A stretch of DNA of 64,000 nucleotides from Desulfosarcinaceae bacterium (lineage in GTDB: Bacteria; Desulfobacterota; Desulfobacteria; Desulfobacterales; Desulfosarcinaceae). Position 1 is the first letter of the stretch. Each line of letters begins with the position of its first letter. The DNA lies in contig JASJCL010000018.1 in NCBI GenBank assembly GCA_030066015.1, forward strand, positions 62,001 through 126,000, in the 5' to 3' direction. The translations under genes were made by a program, and so were the position numbers. The notes beneath the pieces were generated by a model. That model saw nothing but the letters and a program-made list of their open reading frames with translations. It had not been told where the DNA came from and did no database searches. Shown one piece after another: positions 28,365-54,833 of the stretch.

Positions 28365-28404
28365 TGTTATCCATTTTCCCGCGTACGGATCAGGCCCAAC
28401 GCTC

Positions 28405-29604: not shown

Positions 29605-29606
29605 GG

Positions 29607-29885
29607 TTACCATCTCCTCGTCTTGAGATTGTGGGTGTGAACGTGGGCGCCTTTTTTGATATCGGCCACAACGCGGCCAATATCGGCGCCGTATTTGATC
29701 ACCGAGCCGTCCACCGGATGATCGACCATGGCGATTTTGTGGCCCAGGGGAATGTCGTCGAGGGCGGCGACCTCCACCGGCTCCTGGGTGTCCATGTAAA
29801 GCCCTTTGGGCGTCTCGCCAGCCTTGATATCGACGGTGGCCACACCGACGCTATCGGCTTTTTCGTGGACTAGAAACTGAATCAT
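29607..29885 (-). CDS. suyA: Sulfolactate sulfo-lyase small subunit (SuyA)
   Basis: 92 residues, a SAF-type domain. The pattern [39 protein letters not shown] and the end [16 protein letters not shown] corresponds to SuyA (family end GDHVHVHNIKTKRW as I recall it). AAGGAGG precedes the ATG. Forms the lyase with SuyB, which starts two bases downstream. Confidence 0.88.
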
Positions 29886-31278: not shown

Positions 31279-31353
31279 GGCAAGAGCGGGCCACATCTCT
31301 CTGTTATCATTTCGCATGTCGGCATGGGCCACACGCCGTGGCCAACTTTTGGG

Positions 31354-31367
31354 GACCAATATTGGTC
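31354..31367. promoter_or_regulatory. 14-base palindrome, likely activator-binding site
   Basis: GACCAATATTGGTC, a perfect inverted repeat about 100 bases upstream of the predicted sigma-54 transcript start. This is the usual distance for an enhancer site of the divergently encoded activator. Confidence 0.6.
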
Positions 31368-31488
31368 ATTGTGGCAACTATTGGACTTGATAAGGGGTCT
31401 CGATTCTGCCATCAAGGGGGGAGAATCGATCCACCGCCGCCGTCAACTGGATGCGCCCCCACGCATCCCTCGAACCGGGAGCCGGCCG

Positions 31489-33039
31489 ATGCAATGGAGC
31501 CTTGCCACACGGCACAAGATGCTGCTCGAAATCACCAATGCGGTGATCTCCAAGACCTCCAGCCAGGCGTTTTTCAACGCCCTGGCCAGAGAGGTGACCA
31601 AACACATTCCCTGCGACCGCCTGAGCATCAACCTGTATGACGAGGACAGCCAGTCCTTGAAGTACTTCACGGCGGCGGAGGGCATCGATCCGAAAAGCCT
31701 CTCCAATCTGAAGCAGCGTCCCCTGGTGAAGGGCCTCATCGCCAAAATGGCCATCCAGTCGCGCCAGCCCGTCATCATCGACGATCTGTCGCGCTATAAG
31801 GAGTCCTTTACCATTGCCCAATTGGTGGCGGCGGGCCTGAAATCGACGATGGCGTTTCCCCTCATCGTGCGCCGCCAGGTTCTCGGCACCCTGCACTTCT
31901 CCTTCAAGGCCATCCCCCAGCACCTCTCCGAGCTGACCGAGGTGCTCACCGAGGTGTCCAAGCAGGTGGCCATCGCTGTGGACACCTTGGTGGCATATAA
32001 CCGGCTGCGCCAGGAAAAGCAGCATTTGGAGCGGGAAAAGCGGTATCTCATCGGGGGGGCCGCGGAGTACCAGCTAGAACACTTCACTTACGCCTCCAAG
32101 GAGATGACCGAGATCATGGGGCTCGCCAAACGGGTGGCCGACATCGACGCGCCGGTCTTCATCACCGGTGAAACCGGTACCGGGAAGGACTACCTGGCGC
32201 GCTATATCCACCAGATCAGCCCGCGCAACGACCACCTCTTCGTCAAGGTCAATTGCCCCGCCATCCCCCCCACCCTTTTCGAGAGCGAACTTTTTGGACA
32301 CGCCCGAGGCGCCTTCACCGGCGCCGACGCCCGCCGGGTAGGCCGCTTCGAGATGGCCGACCGCGGTACGGTCTTCCTGGACGAGATCGGTGAGCTGCCG
32401 GCCGTGATGCAGGCCAAGCTGCTGCAGGTGCTGCAGGAACGATGCTTCGAGCGCGTGGGCGACAGCAAACCCATCGAGGCCAACTTCCGCTTGCTGGCGG
32501 CCACCAACCGCGATCCGGAAGCGAGCATCCGGGAGGGCCGACTGCGCAAGGATCTCTACTACCGCCTCAATCTGATCCACATCCATCTGCCGCCGCTGCG
32601 CCAGCGCCAGGGTGACGTTCCCCTGCTGATTGAACACATCACCCGGCGCGAGGCGGCCCAGATCAACCGACCGGCCCCCCATTACACGGCGCGCGCCATC
32701 GACCTGCTCAGCGCCTATCACTGGCCCGGCAATATTCGAGAACTGAAAAATCTCTTGAAACGGATGATCATTCTGAAGCCAGGCAAGACCATCGATCTCC
32801 AGGACGTGGAGAAGATGATCGACAGCGCCGGAGTGCAATCATCCGGCGTTTCCGGCGACATCCCGACACTGGCGGCATCCGAACGCCAGACCATCGAACG
32901 GGCCCTGGTGGCCAGCAAGGGCGTGATCGGGGGGGCGCAGGGCGCCGCCCGTCTGCTGGGGGTGCCGCGCTCCACTTTGAATTACCGCATGAAGAAATAT
33001 GGCATTCGACCGAGCAAGACGGTGGTGCTGGCGCCTTAG
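31489..33039 (+). CDS. Sigma-54-dependent activator (GAF, AAA+, Fis-type HTH)
   Basis: 516 residues. N-terminal GAF sensor domain (about 8-170), a linker helix (about 172-188), an AAA+ domain with Walker A GETGTGKD (227-234), the sigma-54 contact loop GAFTGA (274-279) and VFLDEIGELP (295-304), then a Fis-type helix-turn-helix (about 470-510; GGAQGAARLLGVPRSTLNYRMKKYGI). GGGAG precedes the ATG at 31489; the frame is open further upstream but without family similarity. It is divergent from the larA-suyAB operon, which has a sigma-54 promoter, so that operon is its likely target; the GAF ligand may be sulfolactate or sulfite-related. Confidence 0.93.
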   Translation: MQWSLATRHKMLLEITNAVISKTSSQAFFNALAREVTKHIPCDRLSINLYDEDSQSLKYFTAAEGIDPKSLSNLKQRPLVKGLIAKMAIQSRQPVIIDDLSRYKESFTIAQLVAAGLKSTMAFPLIVRRQVLGTLHFSFKAIPQHLSELTEVLTEVSKQVAIAVDTLVAYNRLRQEKQHLEREKRYLIGGAAEYQLEHFTYASKEMTEIMGLAKRVADIDAPVFITGETGTGKDYLARYIHQISPRNDHLFVKVNCPAIPPTLFESELFGHARGAFTGADARRVGRFEMADRGTVFLDEIGELPAVMQAKLLQVLQERCFERVGDSKPIEANFRLLAATNRDPEASIREGRLRKDLYYRLNLIHIHLPPLRQRQGDVPLLIEHITRREAAQINRPAPHYTARAIDLLSAYHWPGNIRELKNLLKRMIILKPGKTIDLQDVEKMIDSAGVQSSGVSGDIPTLAASERQTIERALVASKGVIGGAQGAARLLGVPRSTLNYRMKKYGIRPSKTVVLAP

Positions 33040-33146: not shown

Positions 33147-33947
33147 CTACTTCGCAGCGGCCGCAACGGACGCCGGTATGACCTGGGAGATGTTGTTGGC
33201 CGAGATGATCTCACGCAGCTTTTGGGGGGGCTCGCGGTCGGTGACCAGGCAGGCAATCTCACTGAGGCGCCCCACCTGGGCGATGGCGCTCTTGCCGAAC
33301 TTGGTGCCATCGGTCACCAGAATCACTTCGCGGGCGTTGCCCATCATGCGGTTCATCAGCATCGCCTCTTCGTAGTCGTAGTCGAGCAGCAGCCCCTCTT
33401 CCGAAATGGCGCCGATGCCCATGAGGAGATATTCGGCCTGGAAATTGGAGACAAACTCGATGGCCGCCTGCCCCACCAGGCCGCCGTTGTGGTGGCGCAC
33501 CCGTCCGCAGGGCATGAGGAGCTCGATCTCCCGGTTGCTGTAGAGATGCATGGCGGCGTGGATGTTGTTGGTGATGACGCAGAGATTGGAGAGCCGCGAG
33601 AGCTCCTGGGCCACGATCTCCATGGTCGATCCGCCCGAGATGAAGAGCGAGGAGCTGGGTCGGATCAAGGCGGCAACCGCTTCGGCCAGGCGGCGCTTTT
33701 CGTCCAGCATGGAGATGCGGCGCACATCGTAGCTAAGGTTGACCAGACTTGACACCGAACCGGCGCCCCCGTGATGGCGGGTCACCAGGTTGTTCTTGCT
33801 CAGCGCCAGGATATCGCGCCGGATGGTCTGGGTGGAGACCTGGTATTTTTCGGCGAGGAACTCGATGCTGGCGTAGCCGCGTTGGTTGACCAGCTTGGCG
33901 ATCCCCTCGCGCCGGTCGGCCACCTTGGTGTTGGCGTCGGTCTTCAT
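33147..33947 (-). CDS. DeoR-family transcriptional regulator of the sugar operon
   Basis: 266 residues: N-terminal DeoR helix-turn-helix (about 12-66; GYASIEFLAEKYQVSTQTIRRDI, RHHGGAG) and a sugar-phosphate-binding DeoR C-terminal domain (SLFISGGSTMEIVAQ, NIHAAM, GLLLDYDYEEAMLMNRMM, LVTDGTKFGKSA). Last gene of the minus-strand sugar operon; its ATG overlaps the GH31 stop by four bases. In E. coli the sulfoquinovose cluster is also controlled by a DeoR regulator (YihW/CsqR), so a phosphorylated or free sulfosugar effector is possible. Confidence 0.9.
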   Translation of the reverse strand: MKTDANTKVADRREGIAKLVNQRGYASIEFLAEKYQVSTQTIRRDILALSKNNLVTRHHGGAGSVSSLVNLSYDVRRISMLDEKRRLAEAVAALIRPSSSLFISGGSTMEIVAQELSRLSNLCVITNNIHAAMHLYSNREIELLMPCGRVRHHNGGLVGQAAIEFVSNFQAEYLLMGIGAISEEGLLLDYDYEEAMLMNRMMGNAREVILVTDGTKFGKSAIAQVGRLSEIACLVTDREPPQKLREIISANNISQVIPASVAAAAK

Positions 33948-36214
33948 ACGCTTCTGTCCGCTGGTGTCTCGGAAAGCACTTCCAATCGTCCGTCGGCGCA
34001 GGTCGCCGCAGCGCCGTGTACCTCCCACTGACAGCCGGGGGTGAGGTCGAGCAGGGCCTTGCCCGCTTGCACGGTCAAATTGAGATCCGGCTCGTGGATC
34101 AGGGCCGCTGCCGAGGGCAGACCATAGACGCGTACTCGTTGAATGCGGTTGTTCGCATTGAGCTCGCCCGTATGCTGAACGGCCGGCCCCTCGGCCAGGA
34201 CGGCACCTTCGCGGACGAAGAGGGGCAGGCGGTCCAGCGGCACCTGCAGATCCATCACCCGGTTGCCTTCCACCCGTTCGCCGGACCAGTAATCGTACCA
34301 GCCCCCTTCGGGCAGATACAGGCTGACCCAACCGCCCGCTTGGAGCACCGGCGCCACCAGGAGATGGTCGCCCAGCATGTACTGAAGCTCGAAGCCCCAC
34401 GCGCGCCGGTCGTCGGGAAAGGCCAACGGCATGCCGCGCATGACGGGCATCCCGCTGACGGCCGCCTCCCTGACCTGGCGCTGCAAATAGGGCAGCAGGC
34501 GATAGCGCAGCGCCAGCCACTCCTTGGTGATGGCTTCGGCCTCCTCCCCGAAATACCAGGGTTCCCGCGGGCCGATGCCGTGAAAGCGGCAGAAGGGCCC
34601 CAGTACGCCCGCCTGCACCCAGCGCACATAAAGTTCGGCGTCGGGCGGGCCGCCGTAGAAGCCGCCGATGTCGTGGGAATAAAATGGTGCGCCGCAGAAA
34701 CCCCAGCTCAAGCCCCCCAGAATCGATCCGGCCAGACCGTTCCAGGAGGCCTGGGGATCGCCGCCCCACTGCATGGGGGCCCGCTGGGAGCCGGCCCAGC
34801 CGCTACGCGACCAGACCAGCCCCTGGCCGTAATGGTCTTCGGAGGCCTGATAGCAGAGCAGGTTATAAATCAGGGGCCAGGCGTTGTGGAAGCGGATCCC
34901 GTTGTCGCCATTGGCGGCGTAGGCGTCTTCAGGCATCTGCTCGCCAAAGTCGACCTTGAAGACGTCGACCCCCATCTCGTGCAACCGGCGGTGCTGGTCA
35001 TACCACCACTGCGCCGCCTCTGGCACCGTGAAATCGAAGAGACCCGACGGGGGCAACGGGGTGAGCACCTTGCCGAAGGGGGAGAGGTCGAATTCGTAGC
35101 GATACGTACTACCCGTATGGTCCTTGAGAAACCATCCCTTGGCGTCCATCTCCTTGAATTTGGGGTGGGCCGTGGAACAGATGGGGTACTCCCAGACACA
35201 GAGCTTGTAGTTCAGCTCGCGCATGATGGCGATGAACTTCTCCGGCTCCGGATAGCGACTGGCGTCCCACTCGAAGTAAAAGCGGGTCTGGGTGTCCAGC
35301 CAGGCCCGTCCGTCCAGGGTGTAGACGTCGCAGGGGATCTCGCGCTCGCGAATGGTGCGGGCGATCTCCTCGGCCTCATCGAAGGTCTTGTAGTAGGCCC
35401 GCGATATCCAATTGCCCAGACTCCAGAGGGGCACCTCGGGGGATCGGCCGGTGATGTCGGTGTAGCGGCGGATAATGTCGGCCGGCGTCTTTCCCGCGAT
35501 GAAGAAGAGATCGAGCACCGCGTCCTCCACCAGCGCGGCGTAACTCCAGTTGGACCATGGCGGATAGCCCGCACCGTGGGTGACGCGGGCGGTGGTGTGG
35601 ATGAAGATCCCGTAGCCGGCGGCGCCCCCCGCATCCTGAGTGCCGCAAGGGGACCAGCAGAAAGGGGCGTTCTTGTAGCACACTTCAGCGTTGGCCCCCA
35701 AGGCGTCTTCGGCCCAGTTGACCAGCCGCTGACCGCGCTTGTCGAGACTGCCGTACTTCTCGCCGAAACCGTAAATGGGCGCCCCGGGCTGAAGGGCCAC
35801 GGAGAAAAACCAGCCCGCGTCGGTACGGGCGAAGGGCGGGATACGAAAGCGCCGCACGAAGTGGCCGTCGGGCGATGGCTGAACCACGGTGCGACCCGCG
35901 TGGGTGAAGGTGACGCTGAGGGCCTCGCCCGGATCCTCGCCTGCGGGTCGGCCCGGATCGAGACGCAGCTCACCGGCTCCGCAGCGGACGATGTGAACGC
36001 CCGCTTCGCAGGCGTAGGAGACCGGTTTGGCGGCGGGCTGACCCACAATGATGGGGTAGACGTTCACCTCGGCATCGCCCAGCTTCAGGCGGACGATATC
36101 TTCGTCCCAGAAGTGCACCTCGAGGGGGCCGGCAGCGGTCGTGAACCGCACCCGGTCCGCTTCGGTGGAAAGAAATTCGAGGCCCATGAGGGCGGTAAGT
36201 TTTTGAGGGTCCAT
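33944..36214 (-). CDS. GH31 alpha-glycosidase, possible sulfoquinovosidase or alpha-xylosidase/glucosidase
   Basis: 756 residues, cytoplasmic (no signal peptide). GH31 landmarks: GFGEKYGSLDKRG (149-161), VFKVDFGEQMPED with the nucleophile Asp422, WGGDPQASW with the acid/base Asp486, and SHDIGGF. The overall look is nearer to YicI-type alpha-xylosidase/glucosidase than to E. coli YihQ. The full QQRWY set that defines classical sulfoquinovosidases is not evident by eye, although an Arg (311) lies in the equivalent RFYFEWD region. Context with a YihV-like kinase argues for a sulfoquinovoside substrate. The ATG at 36214 has AGGAG 12 bases ahead. Ends four bases inside the DeoR gene. Confidence 0.85.
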   Translation of the reverse strand: MDPQKLTALMGLEFLSTEADRVRFTTAAGPLEVHFWDEDIVRLKLGDAEVNVYPIIVGQPAAKPVSYACEAGVHIVRCGAGELRLDPGRPAGEDPGEALSVTFTHAGRTVVQPSPDGHFVRRFRIPPFARTDAGWFFSVALQPGAPIYGFGEKYGSLDKRGQRLVNWAEDALGANAEVCYKNAPFCWSPCGTQDAGGAAGYGIFIHTTARVTHGAGYPPWSNWSYAALVEDAVLDLFFIAGKTPADIIRRYTDITGRSPEVPLWSLGNWISRAYYKTFDEAEEIARTIREREIPCDVYTLDGRAWLDTQTRFYFEWDASRYPEPEKFIAIMRELNYKLCVWEYPICSTAHPKFKEMDAKGWFLKDHTGSTYRYEFDLSPFGKVLTPLPPSGLFDFTVPEAAQWWYDQHRRLHEMGVDVFKVDFGEQMPEDAYAANGDNGIRFHNAWPLIYNLLCYQASEDHYGQGLVWSRSGWAGSQRAPMQWGGDPQASWNGLAGSILGGLSWGFCGAPFYSHDIGGFYGGPPDAELYVRWVQAGVLGPFCRFHGIGPREPWYFGEEAEAITKEWLALRYRLLPYLQRQVREAAVSGMPVMRGMPLAFPDDRRAWGFELQYMLGDHLLVAPVLQAGGWVSLYLPEGGWYDYWSGERVEGNRVMDLQVPLDRLPLFVREGAVLAEGPAVQHTGELNANNRIQRVRVYGLPSAAALIHEPDLNLTVQAGKALLDLTPGCQWEVHGAAATCADGRLEVLSETPADRSV

Positions 36215-36237: not shown

Positions 36238-37284
36238 CTAGGTGTCCGCGATGGTGAAGGTGTAGGTCGTCTCGTGGTGGTAGGGCTCCCCGGGGCGCAC
36301 CACCATGGAGGGGAAATGGGGGTGATTGACCGCATTGGGGAAGGCCTGGGTCTCGAGGCAAAGGCCAGCCCAGGCCGGGTAGCGGTGCCCCCCTTTGCCC
36401 ACCTGCGCCTGATCGAAGATCTTGTGTCCGTTGTAGAACTGCACGCCCGGCGCCGTGGTGGCCATGGTCATCACGCGTCCCGAAGCGGGATCGGTCAGTT
36501 GGGCGCAAGGCGTGAGCCGCTCCTCGGCGGAGCGCAAGACGAAGTTGATGTCGAATACCCCGCCGGTCTTCTCCATGGCCTCGCCCAGGCGGGTCGGCGC
36601 ACGGAAATCGTAGGGCGTTCCCGCCACGCGCATCACCTCACCGGTGGGGATCAGGCTGGCGTCGGTGGGCGTCACCATGTCGGCCGCGATGCTCAAGGTC
36701 TGGCTGCGGATGTCCCCCCGGTCGTGACCCGCCAGGTTGAAGTAACTGTGCTGGACGATGTTGACAATGGTGGCGGCGTCCGCGGCGGCGCTCACCTCGA
36801 AGGTGAGCATGTTCTCGGCGTTCAACGCGTAGCGGATGGTGGTGTCCAGGTTACCGGGGTAGCCCTCCTCACCATCGGGACTGCGGCGCTGGAGCTGCAC
36901 CACATCGGTGTCCCCCGCGGTATAGGCCTCGCTTTGCCAGACATATTTGTCGAAGCCGCGAAAGCCGCCGTGGAGATGATTGTTGGCAGGGGCGTTGACC
37001 CCCAGCTGGTAGGTCTGTCCATCGATACGGAAGCGCCCGGCGGGGATGCGGTTTGCCACGCGTCCGGCCACGGCGCCGAAGAAGGGGTGCCCTCGGAGGT
37101 AGCCGTATAGCGTATCGAAGCCCAGGACCACATCGGCGGGCGCTTCACGGCCGGGCACCTCAAGGGTTTGGATAATGGCCCCGTAGTCGAGGATGCCGAC
37201 CGTGACACCGCCTTTGCTGGTGAGGCCGTAGCGGGTGACTGGCTCGTTCCAGAATTGTCCGAAGGGGCGTTTCTCAATCGTCAT
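36238..37284 (-). CDS. Aldose 1-epimerase (GalM/YihR type mutarotase)
   Basis: 348 residues with the full GalM set: NNHLHGGFRGFDK (first active-site His), QHSYFNLAGH (catalytic His) and GLCLETQAFPNAVNHPHFPSMVV (catalytic Glu region). Interconverts alpha and beta anomers of an aldose. In the E. coli sulfoquinovose cluster the same role is played by YihR next to the GH31 enzyme. The ATG at 37284 is the family start; ribosome site GGAGG lies 12 bases ahead. The 257-base gap upstream contains a strong hairpin. Confidence 0.92.
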   Translation of the reverse strand: MTIEKRPFGQFWNEPVTRYGLTSKGGVTVGILDYGAIIQTLEVPGREAPADVVLGFDTLYGYLRGHPFFGAVAGRVANRIPAGRFRIDGQTYQLGVNAPANNHLHGGFRGFDKYVWQSEAYTAGDTDVVQLQRRSPDGEEGYPGNLDTTIRYALNAENMLTFEVSAAADAATIVNIVQHSYFNLAGHDRGDIRSQTLSIAADMVTPTDASLIPTGEVMRVAGTPYDFRAPTRLGEAMEKTGGVFDINFVLRSAEERLTPCAQLTDPASGRVMTMATTAPGVQFYNGHKIFDQAQVGKGGHRYPAWAGLCLETQAFPNAVNHPHFPSMVVRPGEPYHHETTYTFTIADT

Positions 37285-37541: not shown

Positions 37542-38597
37542 CTACATATTGGTCTTCAACTGCGCGGCCAGCTTGGCCTCTGCCGCCTGGATGGCGGCCT
37601 CATACTTTTTGAGCAGATCGGCGCCCTCGGCCCCATATTTGTCGGTATACCACTTCTTCAAGGGAGAGGCGGCCTTGCGGAAGGCGTCTTTTTCCGCAGC
37701 GGTGGGCACGTAGATCTTCCCGCCCGCCTTCTTGAAGGCCTCGTAGGCTTCGATGGCGCGGCGCTTGGGGAAGGCGAAACAGATCTGGCCCAGGTGACGG
37801 AAGCCGTCGTTGACCACGCGTTTTTGGGCATCGTCAAGCGCCTGGTAAGCGTCCTCGTTCATGATCCACAGACTGGTCATGTAGGCATGCCCGTCCAGGG
37901 TGAGGTATTTGATGTGCTCATGAAACTTCATGCCGACGATGTCGGTGATGCCGTTTTTGGAGCCATCGATGACGCCGGTGGCCAGGGAGGTGTACACCTC
38001 GGGCCAGGCCACGGGCGTGGCCGAGGCGCCCATATTGGCCACCAGGGTCTGCTGGAGCGGCGAGTTGATGGTGCGGATCCGCAACCCCTTCATATCGGCC
38101 GGGGATTTAATGGGACGTTTGGTGTTGGCGATGTTGCGCCAGCCGCCGGTGTTGGTCATGGTCATGACGCGCGGCCCCCCCTTCTTCAGGACGTGCTGCC
38201 GCAGATCGTTGAGGAAGGGTCCGGTGAGAACCTCCTCGGCCACGGCGTCGTTGTCCATCATGTAGGGCAGGTCCATCACCTGCAGCTCCGGGAAGGCCAC
38301 CGAGATGCCGCCAATGGTCATCTGATGGATCTGGATGATGTTGCCCTGGGTGGCCTCGTAGCACTCGCCGGCGTTGCCGCAAAGCTGGGCGCCGGGAAAG
38401 ATCTCCACCGAGATGGTGCCGTTGGAGTGTGCCTCGACGTAATCTTTGAAGGTCAACGCGCCATCATAGTCTTCGTCGTTGGTGTTGGACAGGTGCACGA
38501 TACGCAGGGTATGATCTGCGGCGAAGGCCGTCGCACCGAAGGCGGCAGCACCAAAGACGAGCAAGCAGCTAGCAACTACAGCGATCAATCGTTTCAT
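37542..38597 (-). CDS. TRAP transporter solute-binding protein (DctP type), cluster 2
   Basis: 351 residues. Sec signal peptide (MKRLIAVVASCLLVFGAAAFGATAFA) and DctP fold: FPGAQLCGNAGECYEATQGNIIQIHQ, MKGLRIRTINSPLQQTLVANMGASATPVAWPEVYTSLATGVIDGSKNG with the ligand-binding arginine in RIRT. GGAGGAG precedes the ATG. Located between the permease and the mutarotase in the sugar operon, so its ligand is probably the operon's sugar (proposed sulfoquinovose or its glycerol glycoside). A sugar sulfonate is an acid and suits a TRAP system. Confidence 0.92.
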   Translation of the reverse strand: MKRLIAVVASCLLVFGAAAFGATAFAADHTLRIVHLSNTNDEDYDGALTFKDYVEAHSNGTISVEIFPGAQLCGNAGECYEATQGNIIQIHQMTIGGISVAFPELQVMDLPYMMDNDAVAEEVLTGPFLNDLRQHVLKKGGPRVMTMTNTGGWRNIANTKRPIKSPADMKGLRIRTINSPLQQTLVANMGASATPVAWPEVYTSLATGVIDGSKNGITDIVGMKFHEHIKYLTLDGHAYMTSLWIMNEDAYQALDDAQKRVVNDGFRHLGQICFAFPKRRAIEAYEAFKKAGGKIYVPTAAEKDAFRKAASPLKKWYTDKYGAEGADLLKKYEAAIQAAEAKLAAQLKTNM

Positions 38598-38637
38598 TTT
38601 AATCTCCTCCACTCCTAGTTAGATTGGTCCGTTAGCC

Positions 38638-38660
38638 GCTGGAGATGCGCTATCTCCAGC
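38638..38660. other. Hairpin between dctM and dctP
   Basis: GCTGGAGAT, loop GCGCT, ATCTCCAGC: a perfect nine-base-pair stem in the 117-base spacer ahead of the binding-protein gene; no T-tract. Confidence 0.5.
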
Positions 38661-38714
38661 CTCCCACACGATTGAAACAAGATTCACTTCTCCACACCCG
38701 CACCCCGGATGGCG

Positions 38715-40037
38715 TCAACCGCCGCCGGTTCCCAGGATCCAGCTGGCTGCAGCGGGGACGTCCAGATAGCCCAGCCAGTTGGGGATGGCCAGGGTCAGGA
38801 TGGGGATATAAGAGATCAGAAAGATCACCAGGATCTCCACGGCGAGAAAGGGCACCATCTCCAGGGCGATCTTCTCCAGGGACTCGCGACTGAGACCGGC
38901 GGCCACGAAGAGCACTAGCCCCATGGGCGGAGTGGCCAGGCCGACGGTGACGTTGACACACATGCAGACCGCAAAATGCAGCGGGTGAATGCCCACGCTC
39001 ACCATGGCGGGACCCAGAATGGGCCCGAGAATCAGGATGGCCGGGCCGGCGTCCAGAAACATCCCCACGATGAACAGCAGAATGTTGACCATGAAGAAAA
39101 CGGCGTAGGGGTTCTCACTGACCGAGAGCACCAAGCGGGCCATCTTCTCCGGTGTGTGATAAAAGCTGACGATGGACGCAAAACTCACCGCCGCGGCCAC
39201 CAGCATGAGGATAACGCCAGAGGAGACGGCGGCCGATGTGAATACCCGGGGAATGTCGCTGAACTTCATCTGCCGGGTCGCCAGCGCCACGATGAGGGCG
39301 TAGCCGGCACCGACGGCGGCCGCCTCGGTGGGCGTGAACACCCCAGCCAGGATGCCGCCCAACATGATCACCGGGGTCATCAAGGGGATGGCCCCGTCCC
39401 AGAGGGCCTTGAGGCGTTCGCGCCAGGGCATGGGCTCATTGGCCACCGGAAAATTGCGCGCTTTGGCGAGGTAGGCGGTGAGCAGCATGAGCCCGAGACC
39501 GATGCTGAGGCCGGGCACCAGACCGGCAGCGAAGAGCCCGGCCACGGAGACGTTCATGACGAAGGCGTAGAGAATCATCAGCCCGGAAGGCGGGATGATG
39601 GGGCCAATCACGCTGCTGGCCGCTGTCACGGCGGCGGCGAAACGGCGAGTATAGCCATTCTTCTCCATGGCGGGGATCAGCATGGCGCCGAGGGCGGAGG
39701 TGTCGGCTACGGCCGACCCGGAGAGACCGGCGAAGAGAATCGAAGAAGATATGTTGACCTGGGCCAGCCCCCCACGGCGATGACCGAGAAAGGCCTGGGC
39801 CAGCTTGACGAGGTTTTTGGTGATACCGCCCTGGTTCATAATCTCGCCCGCCACGATGAAAAAGGGCAAGGCCAGCAAGGGCGGGCTGTACATGCCGTTG
39901 AAAAGGCGGGTGTAGAGGAGCTTGAGAAACATCATCTTGCCGTCGATGACAAAGGCCAGCCCGGGACCGAAGAGCAGGGCGAACACCACGGCCATGCCAC
40001 CGAACATCATCGTCAGGAAGATCAGAAAGTACATCAT
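38715..40037 (-). CDS. TRAP transporter large permease (DctM type), cluster 2
   Basis: 440 residues, about 12 helices; FFIVAGEIMNQGGITKNLVKLAQAFLGHRRGGLAQVN, SGSAVADTSALGAMLIPAMEKNGYTRRFAAAVTAASSVIGPIIPPS, FTPTEAAAVGAGYA and GLATPPMGLVLFVAAGLS mark DctM. GGAGG precedes the ATG; the start overlaps the dctQ stop by four bases. Confidence 0.94.
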   Translation of the reverse strand: MMYFLIFLTMMFGGMAVVFALLFGPGLAFVIDGKMMFLKLLYTRLFNGMYSPPLLALPFFIVAGEIMNQGGITKNLVKLAQAFLGHRRGGLAQVNISSSILFAGLSGSAVADTSALGAMLIPAMEKNGYTRRFAAAVTAASSVIGPIIPPSGLMILYAFVMNVSVAGLFAAGLVPGLSIGLGLMLLTAYLAKARNFPVANEPMPWRERLKALWDGAIPLMTPVIMLGGILAGVFTPTEAAAVGAGYALIVALATRQMKFSDIPRVFTSAAVSSGVILMLVAAAVSFASIVSFYHTPEKMARLVLSVSENPYAVFFMVNILLFIVGMFLDAGPAILILGPILGPAMVSVGIHPLHFAVCMCVNVTVGLATPPMGLVLFVAAGLSRESLEKIALEMVPFLAVEILVIFLISYIPILTLAIPNWLGYLDVPAAASWILGTGGG

Positions 40038-40621
40038 GGCTGCCCACCTCCTTCGACGGCCGGTTCCGGGGCCGCCTCGGTGGGCGTCGCCAAGTCTTCT
40101 CGATCGCGTGCTGTCGCCGGGTTGAAAATCCCCATGGCGTCGATCACGAGGCCTTCGATCACGGCCAAGGTGAGCAGCACCCAGGCGGGCGGCATCACGA
40201 TGTAAACCCAGGCCTTACTCACCTCCAGGGCCGGCAGCTCCAGACGGTGGCCGCCCCTGTACATCTGCCAAGCCTGATGCAGGCAGACCAGGGCGATGAG
40301 CATCACGATCAGGTGAAGAAGGCAGCGGATGATATACTCCACCCGGTTGCGCTTCAGCATGTTGCGGAAGAGCATCATGCTGATGTTGAGGCCTTTGCGA
40401 TACGCAACGGGCAGAATGAGAAAGGAGATCCAGACCATCATCCACAATGAGGCTTCCTCCGTCCAGGAGAGGGCGTTGTTGAGCACATAGCGGTAGAAGA
40501 CCTGGACGATGTTGAGCGTGGTGATGGCGAAAAGCATGACCCAGGCGAAATTGACCGCCAGCTTCTCTACCCCGTCATTGATTTTGGCCAGCAGATCGAG
40601 GATCCGATTCAGTGCCGTCAT
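40034..40621 (-). CDS. TRAP transporter small permease (DctQ type), cluster 2
   Basis: 195 residues, four helices, with FYRYVLNNALSWTEEASLWMMVWISFLILPVAYRKGLNISM as DctQ signature and a charged Pro/Glu-rich C-terminal tail. GGGGGG lies just before the ATG. Coupled to dctM by a four-base overlap and 49 bases after the isomerase gene. Confidence 0.92.
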   Translation of the reverse strand: MTALNRILDLLAKINDGVEKLAVNFAWVMLFAITTLNIVQVFYRYVLNNALSWTEEASLWMMVWISFLILPVAYRKGLNISMMLFRNMLKRNRVEYIIRCLLHLIVMLIALVCLHQAWQMYRGGHRLELPALEVSKAWVYIVMPPAWVLLTLAVIEGLVIDAMGIFNPATARDREDLATPTEAAPEPAVEGGGQP

Positions 40622-40670: not shown

Positions 40671-42020
40671 TCAGGCAGTTAATTCCACGGTATCGATCTC
40701 CAGCAACTCGGCCAAGCGGCGCAGGGCCGGGCGGTGTTCGCCATAGACGATGGCGGTGTGATGCTCCAGACCGGCCGCCATCAGGTTGTCCAGCACCGTG
40801 TCCACATGGCTGTCCAGCCGGGCGACGCCGGCCGTGCCGGAAAAGGCCAGGGGCGCCCGTTGCATCTCGCCGCCCCCCAGCACCAGCCGGGAGCGCCCCT
40901 GTCCCTTGCTGAAGCGCGCCAGGGTGATGCGACCGGGCTTCAGGGGGAATTCATTGAGCAGGGGCAGTTTGCGATTGGAGTGAATGGTGGCGCGGACCTC
41001 CGCCGCCGGATCGGCCATTTGCACCGGTGCCTGGCCGCAGTGCCAGAAGACGCAGGTGTCGCTCTCGCGGTCCAGGTCCACCAGGTCGGTGTTGAACGCC
41101 GGCGCGCCGGCGAGGCGCTGCAGAATGAGGGCCGTCAAGACCCCGTGCACGTCGGCCTCACAGCCGCCGGGCAGATAGTGCTCATTGAGCAGTGCCACCG
41201 CGCCGCAGGCCGCCGCGCCATAGTGGGTGAAGAACTCCGGCCAGCAACGGACGGCCAGCCCCGCATAACCGCGGTCGGTGATGAGGCACCGCATCGCCTC
41301 GTACGCTTTGAGGGTCTTTAGGGTGGCGGCCCGGTCCATCTCGGCCAGGTTCACCATCACCTGCTGGCGCTCCCGATAATGGGGCTCGGCCACCGCTTCG
41401 TCGAGCGCCTTGACCCCGTCAAGAAACGCGATCAGATCGTGAACCTCCACCTGGACGCCAAAGCGCTCGGTCAGTTCGTCCTGGGTGTACCGGCAGGCGT
41501 CAAACCCGTCGGGGTGCTGGCCAATCACCCCGATGCGGACCCCGTTCAGGCTGGTTTTTACGGCCGCCGCCCGGGCGAGTCCCTCGATGCGGCGCAGCGC
41601 CTCCGCGTCGTCCGGCGGACCGTGAACGTAGTCGAATTTCAGCGACAACCGGGACAGGGCGTGGGCCGCCAAGTTGATGCCGCAGAAGGAGTTGAGGCGC
41701 AGGCGACCGCCGCTGCGGGGTTCTGGGAAGGACCACAAGAGGAGGGGCGCGGATACCTCCCTGGCGATCTCGCATGTCATGGTGGCGTCGGTGAAGGTCA
41801 CCTGGAGCTGGACCACCAGGTCCAGGGGCTGGGCCTTCAGATGGCCCAGCGCGGCGTTCGCCTGATCGGCGTCGAAGAGAATCCGCCGCTCTCCCACCAC
41901 CTCCGCATCGAGCGCGTCGATGGCGCGCCAGGCCTTTTCAAGAACCGTCTCAGCAAATGCCACATCGAAGGTGTCGCGGCCGACGGCGAGAACACCAATA
42001 CGGGGTCTGATGGCTTCCAT
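40671..42020 (-). CDS. L-fucose/L-arabinose isomerase-family protein, candidate sulfoquinovose isomerase
   Basis: 449 residues of the COG2407 fucose-isomerase-like family. Visible signatures: LRLNSFCGINLAAHALSRL (107-125), ITDRGYAGLAVRCWPEFF (247-264), GCEADVHGVLTALIL (286-300; the Glu and Asp are the expected metal ligands), FWHCGQA (325-331) and HHTAIVYGEHR near the end. Such enzymes interconvert an aldose and a ketose with a divalent metal. As far as I recall, the sulfoquinovose isomerase of the transaldolase-type sulfoglycolysis pathway (SqvD/SftI) belongs to this family, so with the YihV-like kinase nearby, sulfoquinovose to sulfofructose is the proposed reaction. AGGAG nine bases before the ATG. 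First gene of the sugar operon. Confidence 0.85.
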   Translation of the reverse strand: MEAIRPRIGVLAVGRDTFDVAFAETVLEKAWRAIDALDAEVVGERRILFDADQANAALGHLKAQPLDLVVQLQVTFTDATMTCEIAREVSAPLLLWSFPEPRSGGRLRLNSFCGINLAAHALSRLSLKFDYVHGPPDDAEALRRIEGLARAAAVKTSLNGVRIGVIGQHPDGFDACRYTQDELTERFGVQVEVHDLIAFLDGVKALDEAVAEPHYRERQQVMVNLAEMDRAATLKTLKAYEAMRCLITDRGYAGLAVRCWPEFFTHYGAAACGAVALLNEHYLPGGCEADVHGVLTALILQRLAGAPAFNTDLVDLDRESDTCVFWHCGQAPVQMADPAAEVRATIHSNRKLPLLNEFPLKPGRITLARFSKGQGRSRLVLGGGEMQRAPLAFSGTAGVARLDSHVDTVLDNLMAAGLEHHTAIVYGEHRPALRRLAELLEIDTVELTA

Positions 42021-42299: not shown

Positions 42300-43136
42300 A
42301 TGAATCCCTGTAATCTGACCCAGCTCGGCGTCACCCGCGAGTCACCGTGGGCCGTCGGCCACTTTAACATCCACAATTTGGAATACGTCCGGGCCGTGGT
42401 CCGCGCAGCCGCGGCCGAGCGGTCACCCGCCATCCTGGCCGTCGGAATGCTGTCCATCAAGTACATGGGGCTGGCCCCCTTGATTCAGGCCTGCCAGACC
42501 ATCAGCCGGGAGACGGAAGTTCCCGTGGCCGTCCACCTGGACCATGCACGGCAGCTTGGCGTGGTGCGGGAAGCGCTGGACCTGGGGATCAATTCGGTTA
42601 TGTTCGACGGCTCGGCGCTGAGCTATGCTGAAAATGTTGAAAAAACGACAGAAGTGGTCAAAATGGCCCACGATCTCGGGGCCACCGCCGAAGGAGAGGT
42701 GGGCATCGTACCGCACGGGGCGGCCCAGGTCAGCGCGGAGGACATGACCGACCCGGCCCGGGCGGTGGAATTCGCCGAGCGCACCGGGGTGGATTTTCTG
42801 GCCGTCTCCCTGGGCAGCGTCCACGGCATGAAGCGCGCCGGGACCTCTCTCAATCAAGCGCTGCTGCAAGAGGTTCACCAGCAAATCCCGGTGCCCCTGG
42901 TTCTCCATGGCGCTTCGGGGGTGATCGACAGCCAGATTCAGGCGGCCGTGGCCAACGGCATCCGCAAGATCAACGTCAACACCGGCCTGAAGGTGGTCCT
43001 CAAACGCCACCTCACCGCCCATCTGGCGAGCCGTCCGGAGAGCGATCTGCTGGACGATTTCGAAGGGGGAATGGCGGCGGTAGCCCAATCCGTGGCGCAG
43101 CGCATGCGGCTGTTCGGCAGCAGCGGCAAGGCGTAA
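42300..43136 (+). CDS. Class II (zinc) aldolase, candidate sulfofructose-1-phosphate aldolase
   Basis: 278 residues of the fructose/tagatose-bisphosphate class II aldolase family. NIHNLEYVRAVVRAA (23-37), AVHLDHARQ with Asp81 and zinc ligand His82, FDGS (102-105), EGEVGIV (131-137), zinc ligands His175 (SVHGMK) and His203 (LHGASG), and phosphate site KINVNT (223-228). Splits a ketose-1-phosphate into DHAP and an aldehyde. In E. coli sulfoglycolysis this step uses the unrelated class I enzyme YihT; a zinc aldolase variant of the pathway has been described in Arthrobacter-type bacteria as I recall. GGAG five bases before the ATG. Divergent from the isomerase operon, convergent with the kinase. 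Confidence 0.9.
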   Translation: MNPCNLTQLGVTRESPWAVGHFNIHNLEYVRAVVRAAAAERSPAILAVGMLSIKYMGLAPLIQACQTISRETEVPVAVHLDHARQLGVVREALDLGINSVMFDGSALSYAENVEKTTEVVKMAHDLGATAEGEVGIVPHGAAQVSAEDMTDPARAVEFAERTGVDFLAVSLGSVHGMKRAGTSLNQALLQEVHQQIPVPLVLHGASGVIDSQIQAAVANGIRKINVNTGLKVVLKRHLTAHLASRPESDLLDDFEGGMAAVAQSVAQRMRLFGSSGKA

Positions 43137-43188: not shown

Positions 43189-44088
43189 TCACCGGCCCGC
43201 CGCGCTCAGGTGTCGGTTCACCGCCGACCGGTTCGGCACCCCCGCACTGCCGCCGAAGCTCTGGCACTTGAGGGCCGCTGTCGCGGCTGCGAAGCGCATG
43301 GCGTCGGCCATTTCCATCTGTTCGACCATGGCCACAGCAAAGGCGCCGTGAAACACATCTCCGGCCCCGCAGGTATCCACCGCGGCGATCTGGACGGCGG
43401 GACAATGCCGCAGTTGGCCGTCTGACAGCCAGTAGGTGCCCCTTTCGCCGGCCGTGACGGCGGCGAAGCGTGTGCCCTGGCGGGTCACCCGCCGCAAGCC
43501 CTTCTCCAGATCCCGCACCCCGCTGACCTGTGCCAACCCCCGTTCGCTGTAGACCGCATAGGTGGCCAGTTGCACCAGGTCACCGGTGTCGACGGGCGCG
43601 ATGTCGGCATCGATAAGGCTGGGCACCCCGTGCCGACGGGCCAGTTGCAGTGCGGCGGCGGCACCTTCGGGCCAGCGCACGTCGGTGAGCACAAAATCGG
43701 CCTCGGCAATGACGGCCGCCGGCAGCCAGGCGGGATCGGGATCGAGTTGAGCGCTGGAATAATTGACAATCTGGCGTTCGCCGGCCGGATCCACCATCAC
43801 CGCCGAGACTTGCGAGGTTTGGCCGGGGATCAATCGCACGCCGGCGGCATCCACGCCCCGCACAGTCAGGTGGCGAAGGATGTCGCGGCCGACGGCGTCG
43901 TCGCCGAGGCGACCGAAAAAACGGGCCTCGTGTCCCAGGGCGGCCACCGCCAGGCTGGCCACCGCCGCAGGGCCGCCGGCGGCGGCGGCGAAGTTTTGAG
44001 CGAAATACTTGCCGCCCCCTTTGGGCAGCTCCGCCACCTGAAACAGATAGTCAAGACACGCCAACCCGACGCAGACAATTTTGGCCAT
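43189..44088 (-). CDS. yihV: 6-deoxy-6-sulfofructose kinase-like PfkB kinase (YihV type)
   Basis: 299 residues, PfkB family: GLACLDYLFQV start, GGPAAVASLAVAALG (38-52), and catalytic GAGDVFHGA with Asp244. It aligns end to end without gaps in the substrate domain with E. coli YihV as I remember that sequence (GKYFAQN, GERQIVNY, TDVRWPEGA, AALKC). The three YihV residues reported to bind the sulfonate, Lys27, Asn109 and Arg138, are present at the same numbers. Expected reaction: 6-deoxy-6-sulfofructose plus ATP to its 1-phosphate. The ATG at 44088 (GGAG ahead) is the family start. This is the strongest single indication of sulfoquinovose metabolism here. Confidence 0.88.
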   Translation of the reverse strand: MAKIVCVGLACLDYLFQVAELPKGGGKYFAQNFAAAAGGPAAVASLAVAALGHEARFFGRLGDDAVGRDILRHLTVRGVDAAGVRLIPGQTSQVSAVMVDPAGERQIVNYSSAQLDPDPAWLPAAVIAEADFVLTDVRWPEGAAAALQLARRHGVPSLIDADIAPVDTGDLVQLATYAVYSERGLAQVSGVRDLEKGLRRVTRQGTRFAAVTAGERGTYWLSDGQLRHCPAVQIAAVDTCGAGDVFHGAFAVAMVEQMEMADAMRFAAATAALKCQSFGGSAGVPNRSAVNRHLSAAGR

Positions 44089-47201: not shown

Positions 47202-47705
47202 GCTGCGCGCGACGCCCCGCGGGAGAAACCCTATCCAATGCCTACCCCCAATGTAGCCATCCCCGCCGCCGGAAGTAGGCGGCGCCCAATATCCCCGTCC
47301 GCCCGCCCATGGTAGCATTGGGCATCCATCCGCAGACGCCCTCGTCGCAGAGGACCTCGTCGCAGACGCGTTCACCGCGGCAGCCGGGCATCTCGTTTTT
47401 TTGCCACCACCCACAGTTCGAGACATGAAAGGAGGTCCCCCAAGAATAGCTGAGCGAAGCGTTCTGGTCTCGCGCCGAAGGAATGCGCCCATGGATCACG
47501 CCTTGGGCGACCTCGCCAGGCGGGAGTTCCAAGCCGCGGGCACCCTAAAATAAGGAGAGAAACGATGGTGCGAAAGGCCATCGTCGGGACCCCGATACGC
47601 CTGTTGACCGTTTGCGGCGCCGCCGCCTGGGCGGGAATAAAACGGGGGTATTGAGGCTAACCGTGGTTCTAACTTGGTTACAAGGTTAAATTGAGGAGAG
47701 GGATT
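47202..47705. other. Spacer between the two-component pair and the di-heme peroxidase
   Basis: About 500 bases. A CGCCGCC/GGCGGCG stem (47264-47284) without T-tract lies after the regulator gene. One short frame with a good ribosome site (47565-47654) is listed separately. Base composition falls toward AT at the right end. Confidence 0.4.
47565..47654 (+). CDS. Possible 29-residue peptide
   Basis: ATG 47565 to TGA 47654, preceded by TAAGGAGAG at good distance. The peptide (MVRKAIVGTPIRLLTVCG..., ending IKRGY) has a basic start and a short apolar middle, like a leader or a truncated gene start. No family recognised; it may be a remnant. Confidence 0.25.
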   Translation: MVRKAIVGTPIRLLTVCGAAAWAGIKRGY

Positions 47706-49079
47706 GTGAAGAAAAAAAATCTGATATTGCTATTCGTTGCTGTATTCTTTCTCACCGCTGGGCCAGCTTTGGCGAAAGGCCAATTTTTGGTTAAAAAACA
47801 AAAAAAACAATTAGTGAATCTTGGGAAGGCGATCTTCAATGATGTGAATTTGTCGTTCAATCAAAATCAGTCCTGTAAAACCTGCCACCATCCATCGGCT
47901 GGTTTTGCAGATCCTGAAAATCGCGTTGCACCTACGGTCCTTCCGGTTTCCGACGGCTCCATTCCAGAATTGTTTGGAGGACGCAACGCCCCGACAGCCG
48001 CATATGCCGGCTTCAGCCCCATTTTCCACTACGATGCCGGTGAAGGATTATTTGTAGGCGGCCTTTTCTGGGACGGCAGGGCGACCGGACGTATGGATGT
48101 CACGGCCACTGGAGATTTGGGCGCGGGTCCCACCGGCGACCCACTCGCCGATCAGGCCAAGGGGCCTTTCGGGAACCCGGTCGAAATGGCGCTGACGTTT
48201 GAAAACACAGGCTTTACGACTGAAGAAGAGGTGGTTGCCATCATCCAGGCCTCGAATTACGCGCGTAAGTTTGAGAAAGTCTTTGGGCCAGGCGCCTTTG
48301 ACGACATCGCCGTGGCATACAACAACGCAAGTATCGCGATTGCGGCCTTTGAAAGGTCCAAAAGAGTAAACCGATTCAAATCCAAATTCGATAAGTTTAT
48401 AAGAGAGCAAGGCGGGGATGTCAGCGACTTTGGTGTTGAGGTGCAACCCGATGGGTTCCGTAAATATGTGGGGCCCCCCGCCAGATTCAAGTCCAAGGCG
48501 TTTTCCTACGACGAAGCCGATGGGTTGGCCATCTTCAATTCGGATTCCTATACGCAAATGGGCATGACCCCAGATGGTCAAAACGGTGGCATGTGCTACC
48601 TTTGCCACCTGACGACAAACCATGAGGTAGTGGATGATGATAACCGTCCAATTAACGGACCTGCGCCGGGAATTTACCATCCGATTCTGACCGATTTTAC
48701 CTACGACAACCTGGGAATTCCGGTGAATCCCCGCATTGCTGTTCTGGCTGGCCCACAAGATACTGATTTGGGACTTGGTGGACAGCCTACACAGTTAGAT
48801 GCCGCTTATGGAGAAGCATACCCATTTGTCGCTGATGAGGAAGGAAAATTTAAGGTATCCTCCTTACGGAATCTGTCCCGTACGGCGCCCTATGGGCACA
48901 ACGGATTCTTCGCCACTATTTACGATATCGTCCACTTCTACAATACCAGGGATGTGGATCCAACATGGCCTGGGCCTGAAGTACCCGCTACTGTGAATGG
49001 CGATGAACTTGGCAATTTGGGCCTGACCCTGGCCCAAGAGCAAAAGCTGGTTCTTTTCCTGGAAACCTTGACCGATTGA
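47706..49079 (+). CDS. Periplasmic di-heme cytochrome c peroxidase/MauG-family protein
   Basis: 457 residues from a GTG start (GGAG ahead). A Sec signal peptide (KKKNLILLFVAVFFLTAGPALA) is followed by two c-type heme sites, CKTCH (57-61) and CYLCH (297-301), in the usual two-domain spacing. The conserved RNAPTAAYAGFSPIFHYDG-like region, FWDGRA and SLRNLSRTAPYGHNGFFATIYDIVHFYN also fit bacterial CcpA/MauG proteins. Probably reduces peroxide or oxidises a protein in the periplasm. Codons are clearly more AT-rich than in the neighbours, suggesting acquisition by transfer. A clear terminator follows. Confidence 0.92.
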   Translation: MKKKNLILLFVAVFFLTAGPALAKGQFLVKKQKKQLVNLGKAIFNDVNLSFNQNQSCKTCHHPSAGFADPENRVAPTVLPVSDGSIPELFGGRNAPTAAYAGFSPIFHYDAGEGLFVGGLFWDGRATGRMDVTATGDLGAGPTGDPLADQAKGPFGNPVEMALTFENTGFTTEEEVVAIIQASNYARKFEKVFGPGAFDDIAVAYNNASIAIAAFERSKRVNRFKSKFDKFIREQGGDVSDFGVEVQPDGFRKYVGPPARFKSKAFSYDEADGLAIFNSDSYTQMGMTPDGQNGGMCYLCHLTTNHEVVDDDNRPINGPAPGIYHPILTDFTYDNLGIPVNPRIAVLAGPQDTDLGLGGQPTQLDAAYGEAYPFVADEEGKFKVSSLRNLSRTAPYGHNGFFATIYDIVHFYNTRDVDPTWPGPEVPATVNGDELGNLGLTLAQEQKLVLFLETLTD

Positions 49080-53616: not shown

Positions 53617-53906
53617 GCACGGCCGCCGGCACTACCAAATTGATCGGTCGTGGCAGGAATGAACGGATCCAAGGCTGCTGGAGATTCTGTATCGCCCGAT
53701 TCGTTTGGGTGGAAGATCATCCGATCACCGACGCCTTGGGGAATGAGGTCGGCTGCGACGATGGTCACGGCTTGCCGGAGCTGTGATGGCGAAACATATG
53801 CGAGTAGGCGCGTTTAAGATTCAATGCTTGCAGAGCGGCCGCTGCTCCGCTAAGGGTAGACCGAATGACACGGACCCCATCATCCCACATCCCATTGGAG
53901 GTATCC

Positions 53907-54833
53907 ATGACCGTAGACCGTCGCGAATTCCTGGAAAAACTGCTGCTCGGAACCGGCCTTCTCTGGCTCTCACCGGCCAACCTGCTCGCTCAGGACCCGT
54001 GTGCCGTGCAGCACCCCTTGATGCCGCCCAACCCGGCGCTGAAAGGGCAATGCCACAATTGCGGCATGACCCGCCCCATGTGGGCGCGGACCTGGTTCAC
54101 CTATGAAAATGCTGCCGGGGCCCACGAGGTGTGCTCCCTGCACTGCCTGGCGGAAGTCACCCTGATGTCCGGTGAGGATCCGAAGAGGGTGATGGTCGCC
54201 CTTTATCAGGATCCCGACAAGATGATCCCGGTGGAAGCGGCCTACTTCGTAATCGGCTCCAAGGCCAAGGGGACGATGACCATGACGAGCAAACCCGCCT
54301 TTGCTTCCCGGGCGGACGCAGCGGCCTTCGCGGCGCAGTGCGGCGGCACGGTCGCCCAATTCCCGGAAGCGCTTGCAGTGGCGCAGAAAAGCGTCGCGGC
54401 GGAGAATCAGAAGATCGCCCAGAATCGCAAGCGGAAAGGCAAAATTGTCGAACCGGTGGCGGATCAGGATCGCTGCCCGGTATGCGGCATGTACCCGGCT
54501 CGGTATCCGCAGCACAAAAGCCAACTGCAGACCCGTGACAAAACCATCTACCATTTCTGCTCGACCCAGTGCCTCTTCACCTTTCTCAAGCAGCCCAAAG
54601 ACCACGTGGAAGCTTCGGTGATGCCGTTTCTGATCTGGGTGGTTGATTTTGAGGGCGGGCAGTGGATTTATGCCAAGAGTGCCTATTACGTAGTGGGATC
54701 GAAGCAATACGGACCCATGGGCAAGGAGGCCATTCCCTTCAGAAGCCGCTCCTCAGCCGAGTCGTTCGCCGCCCAGCATGGCGGCAAGGTGCTGCCCTAC
54801 GGGCAGGTCAACCATGATGCCATCATCGCCTGA
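53907..54833 (+). CDS. Tat-exported protein with two NosL-like domains
   Basis: 308 residues. Twin-arginine signal (DRREFLEKLLLGTGLLWLSPANLLA) then two NosL-type domains: first about 45-150 (GQCHNCGMTRPMWARTWF, VCSLHCLAEV, AAYFVIGSKAKGTMTMTSKPAFASRADAAAFAAQCGGTV), second about 190-305 (RCPVCGMYPARYP, HFCSTQCLFTFL, AYYVVGSKQYGPMGKEAIPF, FAAQHGGKVLPY). NosL is a copper chaperone of nitrous oxide reductase, usually single-domain and lipid-anchored. GGAGG precedes the ATG. No nos genes are near, so another metal-delivery role is likely. Confidence 0.85.
   Translation: MTVDRREFLEKLLLGTGLLWLSPANLLAQDPCAVQHPLMPPNPALKGQCHNCGMTRPMWARTWFTYENAAGAHEVCSLHCLAEVTLMSGEDPKRVMVALYQDPDKMIPVEAAYFVIGSKAKGTMTMTSKPAFASRADAAAFAAQCGGTVAQFPEALAVAQKSVAAENQKIAQNRKRKGKIVEPVADQDRCPVCGMYPARYPQHKSQLQTRDKTIYHFCSTQCLFTFLKQPKDHVEASVMPFLIWVVDFEGGQWIYAKSAYYVVGSKQYGPMGKEAIPFRSRSSAESFAAQHGGKVLPYGQVNHDAIIA

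Follow-up and report, generated by a model that had tools for sequence, protein, structure and literature searches.

A YihV-like kinase in a gene cluster predicted to convert sulfoquinovose to sulfide in a Desulfosarcinaceae bacterium

Introduction

Sulfoquinovose (SQ), a sulfosugar abundant in plants and algae, is produced at about ten billion tons per year (PMC12890257), and its anaerobic conversion to sulfide has been described as a process shared by an SQ degrader and a sulfonate-respiring partner (PMC6278857, PMC12330013, PMC13219744). In one two-organism model, Desulfovibrio sp. DF1 is fed DHPS by E. coli and processes it through DhpA, SlaB, and SuyAB (PMC6278857). Hybrid sulfo-EMP/EMP2 clusters, wherein a YihV-type kinase is combined with a class II aldolase and CsqR, are known from Yersiniaceae (PMC9594981) and Vibrio mediterranei (PMC13372026). 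The V. mediterranei cluster consists of ten genes that are induced by SQ, one of them for an SqiA-type aldolase, and a knockout of its isomerase gene loses SQ degradation (PMC13372026). A racemization step is needed between SQ and SuyAB, as the former gives (S)-sulfolactaldehyde whereas the latter uses (R)-sulfolactate, and the known answer is the SlcC/ComC two-dehydrogenase racemase (PMC12421959).

Here we describe a locus in which these parts appear to be combined. The window, meaning the whole 64,000-nucleotide stretch of DNA that was analyzed, carries what we read, with a probability of about 0.78, as a hybrid sulfo-EMP/EMP2 block joined to a C3-sulfonate block, such that the kinase would act as an ATP-dependent 6-deoxy-6-sulfofructose 1-kinase and SQ would be converted to sulfide. 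From gene content, residues, synteny, phylogeny, and the presence of dsrAB and aprA we infer all substrates and fluxes of this pathway. The SQ block would comprise a GH31 glycosidase, a mutarotase, an SftI-like isomerase, the YihV-like kinase, a class II aldolase, a TRAP importer, and a CsqR-like regulator. The C3 block would comprise a DhpA-like dehydrogenase, an aldehyde:ferredoxin oxidoreductase (AOR), a LarA-family racemase, SuyAB, Tct and TRAP transporters, and a sigma-54 regulator.

With the DF1 pathway (PMC6278857), the locus shares a COG2084-type dehydrogenase, an AOR, and SuyAB in a sulfite reducer, but its cluster has LarA and no SlaB, and it adds the half that leads from SQ to sulfolactaldehyde. 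The kinase, class II aldolase, and CsqR-like regulator are shared with both groups of hybrid clusters (PMC9594981, PMC13372026), an SqvD/SftI-type isomerase with that of Yersiniaceae (PMC9594981), and a TRAP transporter and a GalM-like gene with the Vibrio loci. Unlike the hybrid clusters, the window has a non-YihQ GH31 enzyme, and SuyAB and Dsr occur in the same genome. In Vibrio, a YihU homologue reduces sulfolactaldehyde and DHPS is released, whereas the cluster described here is without a close YihU homologue. Finally, the tandem sulfofucolytic-sulfolyase pathway of P. wurundjeri also joins sulfosugar breakdown to SuyAB in one organism, but it is of the Entner-Doudoroff type, acts on sulfofucose, uses an SlcC/ComC racemizing pair, and ends in sulfite that is exported rather than respired (PMC12421959).

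Results and discussion

The kinase is closest to YihV in sequence and structure

The predicted sulfofructose kinase gene occupies positions 43189 to 44088 of the minus strand and encodes a PfkB protein of 299 residues followed by a stop codon, with a ribosome-binding-like sequence upstream of its ATG. An initial annotation of this gene had placed Lys27, Asn109, Arg138, and Asp244 at the positions that these residues hold in E. coli YihV, with no gap between the two proteins. Indeed, K27 (in GGGKYF), N109 (in IVNY), R138 (in DVRW), and D244 (in GAGD) fall as described, and the alignment with YihV (42% identity) has its sole gap near the C terminus. In the structure of YihV, the lysine, asparagine, and arginine reportedly hold the sulfonate of sulfofructose. 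None of the other alignable PfkB proteins of this genome carries all three.

When the kinase was searched against the sequences of all solved structures, YihV ranked first (247 bits), followed by the Agrobacterium kinase 2rbc (203 bits) and, in third place, by ribokinases (at most 102 bits). These scores, which put YihV 145 bits above the best ribokinase, exclude a chance match. An AlphaFold model of the kinase (mean pLDDT 94.1) superimposes on YihV with sulfofructose (7ag6) over 298 residues at 1.3 Å (Z 47.1), compared with Z scores of 43.0 for 2rbc and 40.2 for ribokinase, and Foldseek also ranks YihV as the best structural match. The structural comparison that had been proposed as a check thus points to YihV. 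Among NCBIfam models, ribokinase scores highest, with 159 bits where the curated cut-off is 300, and all kinase models in that collection score far under their cut-offs. A better fit to ribokinases or KDG kinases, named in the initial annotation as grounds for abandoning the assignment, did not emerge, because the ribokinase model stays far under its cut-off and YihV comes first by both sequence and structure. Identity as a ribokinase or KDG kinase is rejected on the sequence, profile, and structure scores.

It is already disfavored, and in our estimation highly improbable, that the gene belongs to a cluster for xyloside or fucose utilization and encodes an ordinary sugar kinase of the ribokinase type. 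The rank of the ribokinase model would fit this proposal, as would a GH31 glycosidase closest to the alpha-xylosidase YicI and its relatives, but the low NCBIfam scores, the lead of YihV, and the CsqR-like, SftI-like, and SuyAB neighbors speak against it. We assign the kinase to the YihV family as a new member with high confidence, and the gene very probably encodes a sulfofructose-activating enzyme. The fold and the four residues are shared with E. coli YihV (PDB 7ag6, 7agh, 7agk), but the kinase belongs to a distinct, well supported Desulfobacterota clade and has other operon partners.

Asn109 carries the association with SQ genes

Across 84,980 species genomes, a scan yielded 80 relatives of the kinase, which were aligned and scored for SQ partners by the SQ-pathway genes inside the fetched flanks of each. 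The K-N-R combination is present in 70 of the 72 kinases with SQ partners, the window's kinase counted, and the two exceptions (L026 and L056) are K-S-R proteins encoded in yih operons. The nine relatives without SQ partners, one of which (L087) lies on a short contig, all keep the lysine and the arginine, but position 109 is P, G, T, or S and never N; the equivalent residue of 2rbc is P. The association between N109 and SQ partners is strong (Fisher p about 2e-10). The fact that K27 and R138 are also found in kinases without partners indicates that they are traits of the wider subfamily and that N109 carries the signal. The conservation of R138 is, moreover, partly built in, because the DVRW motif was among the scan patterns.

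In the kinase tree, the Desulfobacterota clade is supported at 97/96, and the window's kinase falls outside the group without SQ genes. A less well supported branch (91/62) has all members of that group on one side. Since the kinases without partners group together, N109 partly marks a clade, and on the sequences at hand it could reflect clade rather than function. The earlier view that the whole triad distinguishes a sulfofructose kinase is therefore upheld for N109 and not for K27 and R138, which occur also in sister kinases without SQ partners, and the useful marker for annotation is N109 alone.

Two further observations concern this position. Ser replaces Asn at 109 in the enterobacterial YihV orthologues L026:10001-10858 and L056:10001-10885, and N109 is thus not absolute. 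A K-P-R subfamily (L062, L082, L084, L086, L089, and L091) groups with 2rbc, lacks SQ partner genes, and might act on another C6-acidic ketose.

The kinase lies in a predicted SQ block

Next to the kinase, on the plus strand at 42300 to 43136 (likely start ATG 42300), lies a class II aldolase gene (PF01116) whose product is predicted to cleave sulfofructose 1-phosphate in the role of SqiA. In the PDB it matches 8q57 and 8q58 best, and we take these to be SqiA structures; the aldolase also has homologues in the Vibrio hybrid clusters. An SftI/SqvD-like sulfoquinovose isomerase candidate of the FucI superfamily follows (40671 to 42020, minus strand). A PDB sequence search with this protein returned no match, and its only NCBIfam match is NF048012 (sulfoquinovose isomerase SftI), at 305 bits where the cut-off is 700, so that by the rule of this model it is a relative of SftI and not an equivalog. 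A 61% identical isomerase occurs in a Cohaesibacter cluster (L023) with homologues of YihQ, YihU, YihV, and CsqR, where it stands in a locus from which YihS is absent. Judged by homology and synteny, genes for an SQ isomerase, a sulfofructose kinase, and a class II sulfofructose-1-phosphate aldolase are thus found together.

Also on the minus strand are TRAP transporter 1 (37542 to 40621; DctP 37542-38597, DctM 38715-40037, DctQ 40034-40621), a predicted importer of SQ or SQ glycosides, and a GalM-like aldose 1-epimerase (36238 to 37284), a predicted SQ mutarotase whose homologues in Vibrio and Cohaesibacter SQ clusters are 42 to 49% identical. The DctP and DctM proteins are 81 to 92% identical to those of Desulfofustis-type clusters, and the transporter has homologues in the Vibrio clusters. 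A DeoR-family regulator with 41% identity to CsqR (YihW) is encoded at 33147 to 33947, minus strand. Two Vibrio clusters (L025 and L040) each contain ten genes, namely yihQ, dctP, dctM, dctQ, a class II aldolase gene, yihS, galM, yihU, yihV, and csqR, and the V. mediterranei cluster presumably holds the same ten. Most of these have counterparts in the window, where the TRAP, GalM-like, class II aldolase, kinase, and CsqR-like genes all have homologues in L025 and L040.

The block around the kinase is very likely devoted to SQ. The proposal in the initial annotation, that the kinase acts on sulfofructose and its neighbors serve SQ, remains the best reading in view of the YihV match and the SftI-like and CsqR-like neighbors, though it missed the downstream SuyAB half.

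The glycosidase of the block is of a different type from YihQ

The GH31 enzyme (33944 to 36214, minus strand) is YicI-like and is predicted to be a sulfoquinovosidase with a non-YihQ sulfonate site. The NCBIfam alpha-xylosidase (YicI) model gives 441 bits, as opposed to 225 for the YihQ model. At the positions of Q288, R301, and W304 (YihQ numbering), which we take to be the sulfonate residues of YihQ, the enzyme has R303, Q309, and F312, and the YihQ set is thus not conserved; R303 presumably aligns with the sulfonate-binding Q288. The GH31 enzymes of the clusters (window, L016, L020, and L088) share an invariant DGRAW motif and an RF motif, including the invariant R303 and R311, where YicI has DCFW and CDF. 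An AlphaFold model of the enzyme, built from 4 sequences, has a mean pLDDT of 53 and is too poor for a pocket comparison. The residues and model scores rule out a YihQ-type sulfoquinovosidase, and we retain the sulfoquinovosidase role as an inference.

In one related locus (L017), the gene between dctP and that of the CsqR-like regulator encodes a Gfo/Idh protein that matches GH188 NAD-dependent sulfoquinovosidases (8qc3, 377 bits; 8qc2, 371 bits), with the first match below the GH188 group at 77 bits. In L016, the place of this SqgA-like gene (L017:12850-14037) is taken by the GH31 gene, an apparent non-homologous replacement. In L023, yihQ follows dctP. The occurrence of three unrelated or diverged glycosidases (GH31, GH188-like, and YihQ) in corresponding places suggests that the slot has one function.

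The same evidence bears on whether the kinase might serve another C6-acidic ketose, such as sulfotagatose from sulfofucose or a uronate-derived sugar, with the cluster given over to that sugar instead of SQ. The sister kinases that keep K27 and R138 without SQ partners imply that the pocket may accept other acidic substrates, the isomerase belongs to the L-fucose isomerase superfamily, the GH31 enzyme is not YihQ-like, and a PF00294/PF01791 pair of unproven role is present in the sulfofucose locus of P. wurundjeri (PMC12421959). However, N109 matches the SQ clusters and not the sister clade, the kinases without SQ genes fall in a different clade, a sulfoquinovosidase-like GH188 gene fills the GH31 slot in L017, and in L023 the isomerase stands beside YihQ in place of YihS. 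We consider this alternative unlikely and prefer SQ as the substrate; even a different sulfosugar would supply the same SuyAB route.

A predicted C3-sulfonate block adjoins the SQ block

All genes of the second block except that of the regulator are on the minus strand. SuyB, the large subunit of sulfolactate sulfo-lyase (28441 to 29613), shares 62 to 67% identity with one set of UxaA-family proteins, and identity to other UxaA proteins drops to 38%. The set includes a protein, 67% identical, encoded beside hpsN/hpsO in Cupriavidus pinatubonensis, an organism known to convert DHPS to sulfolactate for cleavage by SuyAB (PMC6278857). The window's SuyB thus groups with the SuyB of an HpsNO-SuyAB locus and not with the remaining UxaA proteins, and the adjacent gene encodes SuyA, the small subunit with its SAF domain (29607 to 29885).

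A LarA-family nickel-pincer racemase (29949 to 31208) is encoded directly upstream of suyA, as it is in relatives. It scores 513 bits with the LarAH5 malate racemase model, above the curated cut-off of 462, and larC, the LarA cofactor gene, is present in the genome. The curated nickel-dependent malate racemases share this profile, but the window's LarA gene differs in standing directly upstream of suyAB, and from this synteny we propose sulfolactate, the sulfonate analogue of malate, as the predicted substrate. The searched open-access literature yielded no paper that treats LarA together with sulfolactate.

Further members of the block are a predicted C3-sulfonate importer of the tripartite tricarboxylate type (25329 to 28374; TctC 27373-28374, TctA 25771-27321, TctB 25329-25778), TRAP transporter 2 (20838 to 23972; DctP 22815-23972, DctQ 22163-22684, DctM 20838-22151), and, on the plus strand, a sigma-54 activator with a GAF domain (31348 to 33039, upstream start uncertain), a predicted regulator of the block that is conserved beside suyAB in relatives. 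The TRAP 2 type adjoins suyAB in six relatives without SQ genes.

Two enzymes might act on sulfolactaldehyde. A DhpA/YihU-like beta-hydroxyacid dehydrogenase of the COG2084 type (24349 to 25344), a predicted DHPS/sulfolactaldehyde oxidoreductase, is divergent, with 148 bits to the sulfolactaldehyde reductase model against a cut-off of 348. A tungsten-type AOR (18877 to 20796) is a candidate sulfolactaldehyde-oxidizing enzyme, and AORs with 69 to 74% identity lie beside suyAB in relatives. Neither an SlaB-type dehydrogenase nor a close YihU homologue was found in the cluster, which has only these two enzymes in their place. The AOR of DF1 was induced, but the recombinant enzyme did not oxidize sulfolactaldehyde (PMC6278857). 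A GabD-like aldehyde dehydrogenase (59% to E. coli GabD), encoded on another contig among neighbors without sulfonate homologues, could perform the oxidation from outside the cluster. This is the weakest step of the pathway, with the AOR as the sole candidate oxidase inside the cluster.

SuyB is found in 20 of 291 genomes of the window's class. Of the 19 suyAB loci of the class without SQ genes, six have larA immediately upstream of suyA, and in five the beta-hydroxyacid dehydrogenase and AOR genes accompany suyAB. These loci show that a C3-sulfonate block exists across the lineage and that in the window's genome an SQ block is attached to it. At 10468 in L139, larA's place directly upstream of suyA is taken by a ComC-like dehydrogenase gene, which is consistent with alternative solutions for sulfolactate racemization. 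An operon for an Mrp-type multi-subunit cation/proton antiporter (8190-18380, minus strand; B, C, E, and several D-like subunits) adjoins the sulfonate block, with no evident link.

Related genomes carry both halves

The nearest kinases, 57 to 65% identical, are those of Desulfofustis, Desulfobulbaceae, and Desulfovibrio metagenome-assembled genomes (MAGs). The window's genome is a draft of 155 contigs, and most of its relatives are metagenome assemblies. No other genome among the 291 of the window's class has the kinase at high score, and the kinase may therefore have spread by horizontal transfer. SuyB (70-72%) is encoded in all seven of the other Desulfobacterota genomes that carry the kinase, against the 20 of 291 in the class at large, and dsrA is above cut-off in six of the seven.

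The two halves are adjacent in L015, L017, L018, and a Desulfovibrio MAG (L162/L163). The first three have the order (AOR) Tct, suyB, suyA, larA, sigma-54, kinase, aldolase, isomerase, which is the conserved core of the window; relative to suyAB, the SQ block runs the opposite way. A span of about 20 kb in the Desulfovibrio MAG contains the kinase, aldolase, AOR, beta-hydroxyacid dehydrogenase, and suyAB genes. A gammaproteobacterial MAG (L088:6604-20874) joins comC-suyB-suyA to genes for a YihV-type kinase, a YihT-like aldolase, an SftI-like isomerase, a GH31 enzyme that is YicI-like (48%), and a TRAP transporter, a junction that suggests that the same tandem pathway was assembled independently.

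These genomes speak to whether two separate catabolic systems simply lie side by side, one degrading SQ to excreted DHPS or sulfolactate and the other using SuyAB on imported DHPS or sulfolactate. Such an arrangement would agree with the spread of the SuyAB block among genomes without SQ genes and with its own Tct and TRAP 2 transporters and regulator. It is nonetheless rather improbable, given the invariable presence of SuyB with the kinase in the seven genomes and the adjacency of the halves in four of them and in L088; no DHPS exporter was recognized among the genes of the cluster, and the cell itself would benefit from the C3 product. We therefore favor a single joined pathway.

The predicted route from SQ to sulfide

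In this pathway, SQ or its glycosides would be imported by the TRAP transporter, the glycosides hydrolyzed to SQ, and SQ subjected to mutarotation. Isomerization would give sulfofructose, which the kinase would convert to sulfofructose 1-phosphate, and retro-aldol cleavage would release DHAP and (S)-sulfolactaldehyde. The latter would be oxidized to (S)-sulfolactate and racemized to (R)-sulfolactate, from which SuyAB would form pyruvate and sulfite. DsrAB would then reduce sulfite to sulfide in the same cell. The genome has dsrA with an adjacent second match that we assign to dsrB, as well as aprA, and by these genes it fits a dissimilatory sulfate reducer.

That one organism is capable of the entire conversion seems probable. 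Its fullest form, in which a sulfate reducer draws both carbon and an electron acceptor from SQ through oxidation by a tungsten AOR, a LarA racemase, SuyAB, Dsr, and a third, YicI-derived class of sulfoquinovosidase, is a tentative proposal. Taken singly, the enzymes are members or variants of known families; what is newly predicted is their combination, the step assigned to LarA, and a GH31 enzyme of a non-YihQ type. One-organism conversion of SQ to sulfide was not found in the open-access literature searched, which does not in itself prove novelty. If the prediction is true, some of the sulfide that arises at sites of algal and plant decay could derive directly from sulfolipid, without cross-feeding. 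The cluster also offers candidates for the interconversion of (S)- and (R)-sulfolactate, known so far from two dehydrogenases (SlcC and ComC), for a function of the AOR, which in DF1 was induced yet inactive, and for an unrecognized type of sulfoquinovosidase.

Two genes elsewhere in the window were noted by eye. A cytochrome c peroxidase/MauG-like gene with CxxCH motifs (47691-49079, plus strand) has a third-position GC of 0.53, below that of most neighbors, and was perhaps recently acquired. A secreted protein (53865-54833, plus strand) apparently has two repeated NosL-like metal-binding domains, each with a cysteine motif followed by CGM.
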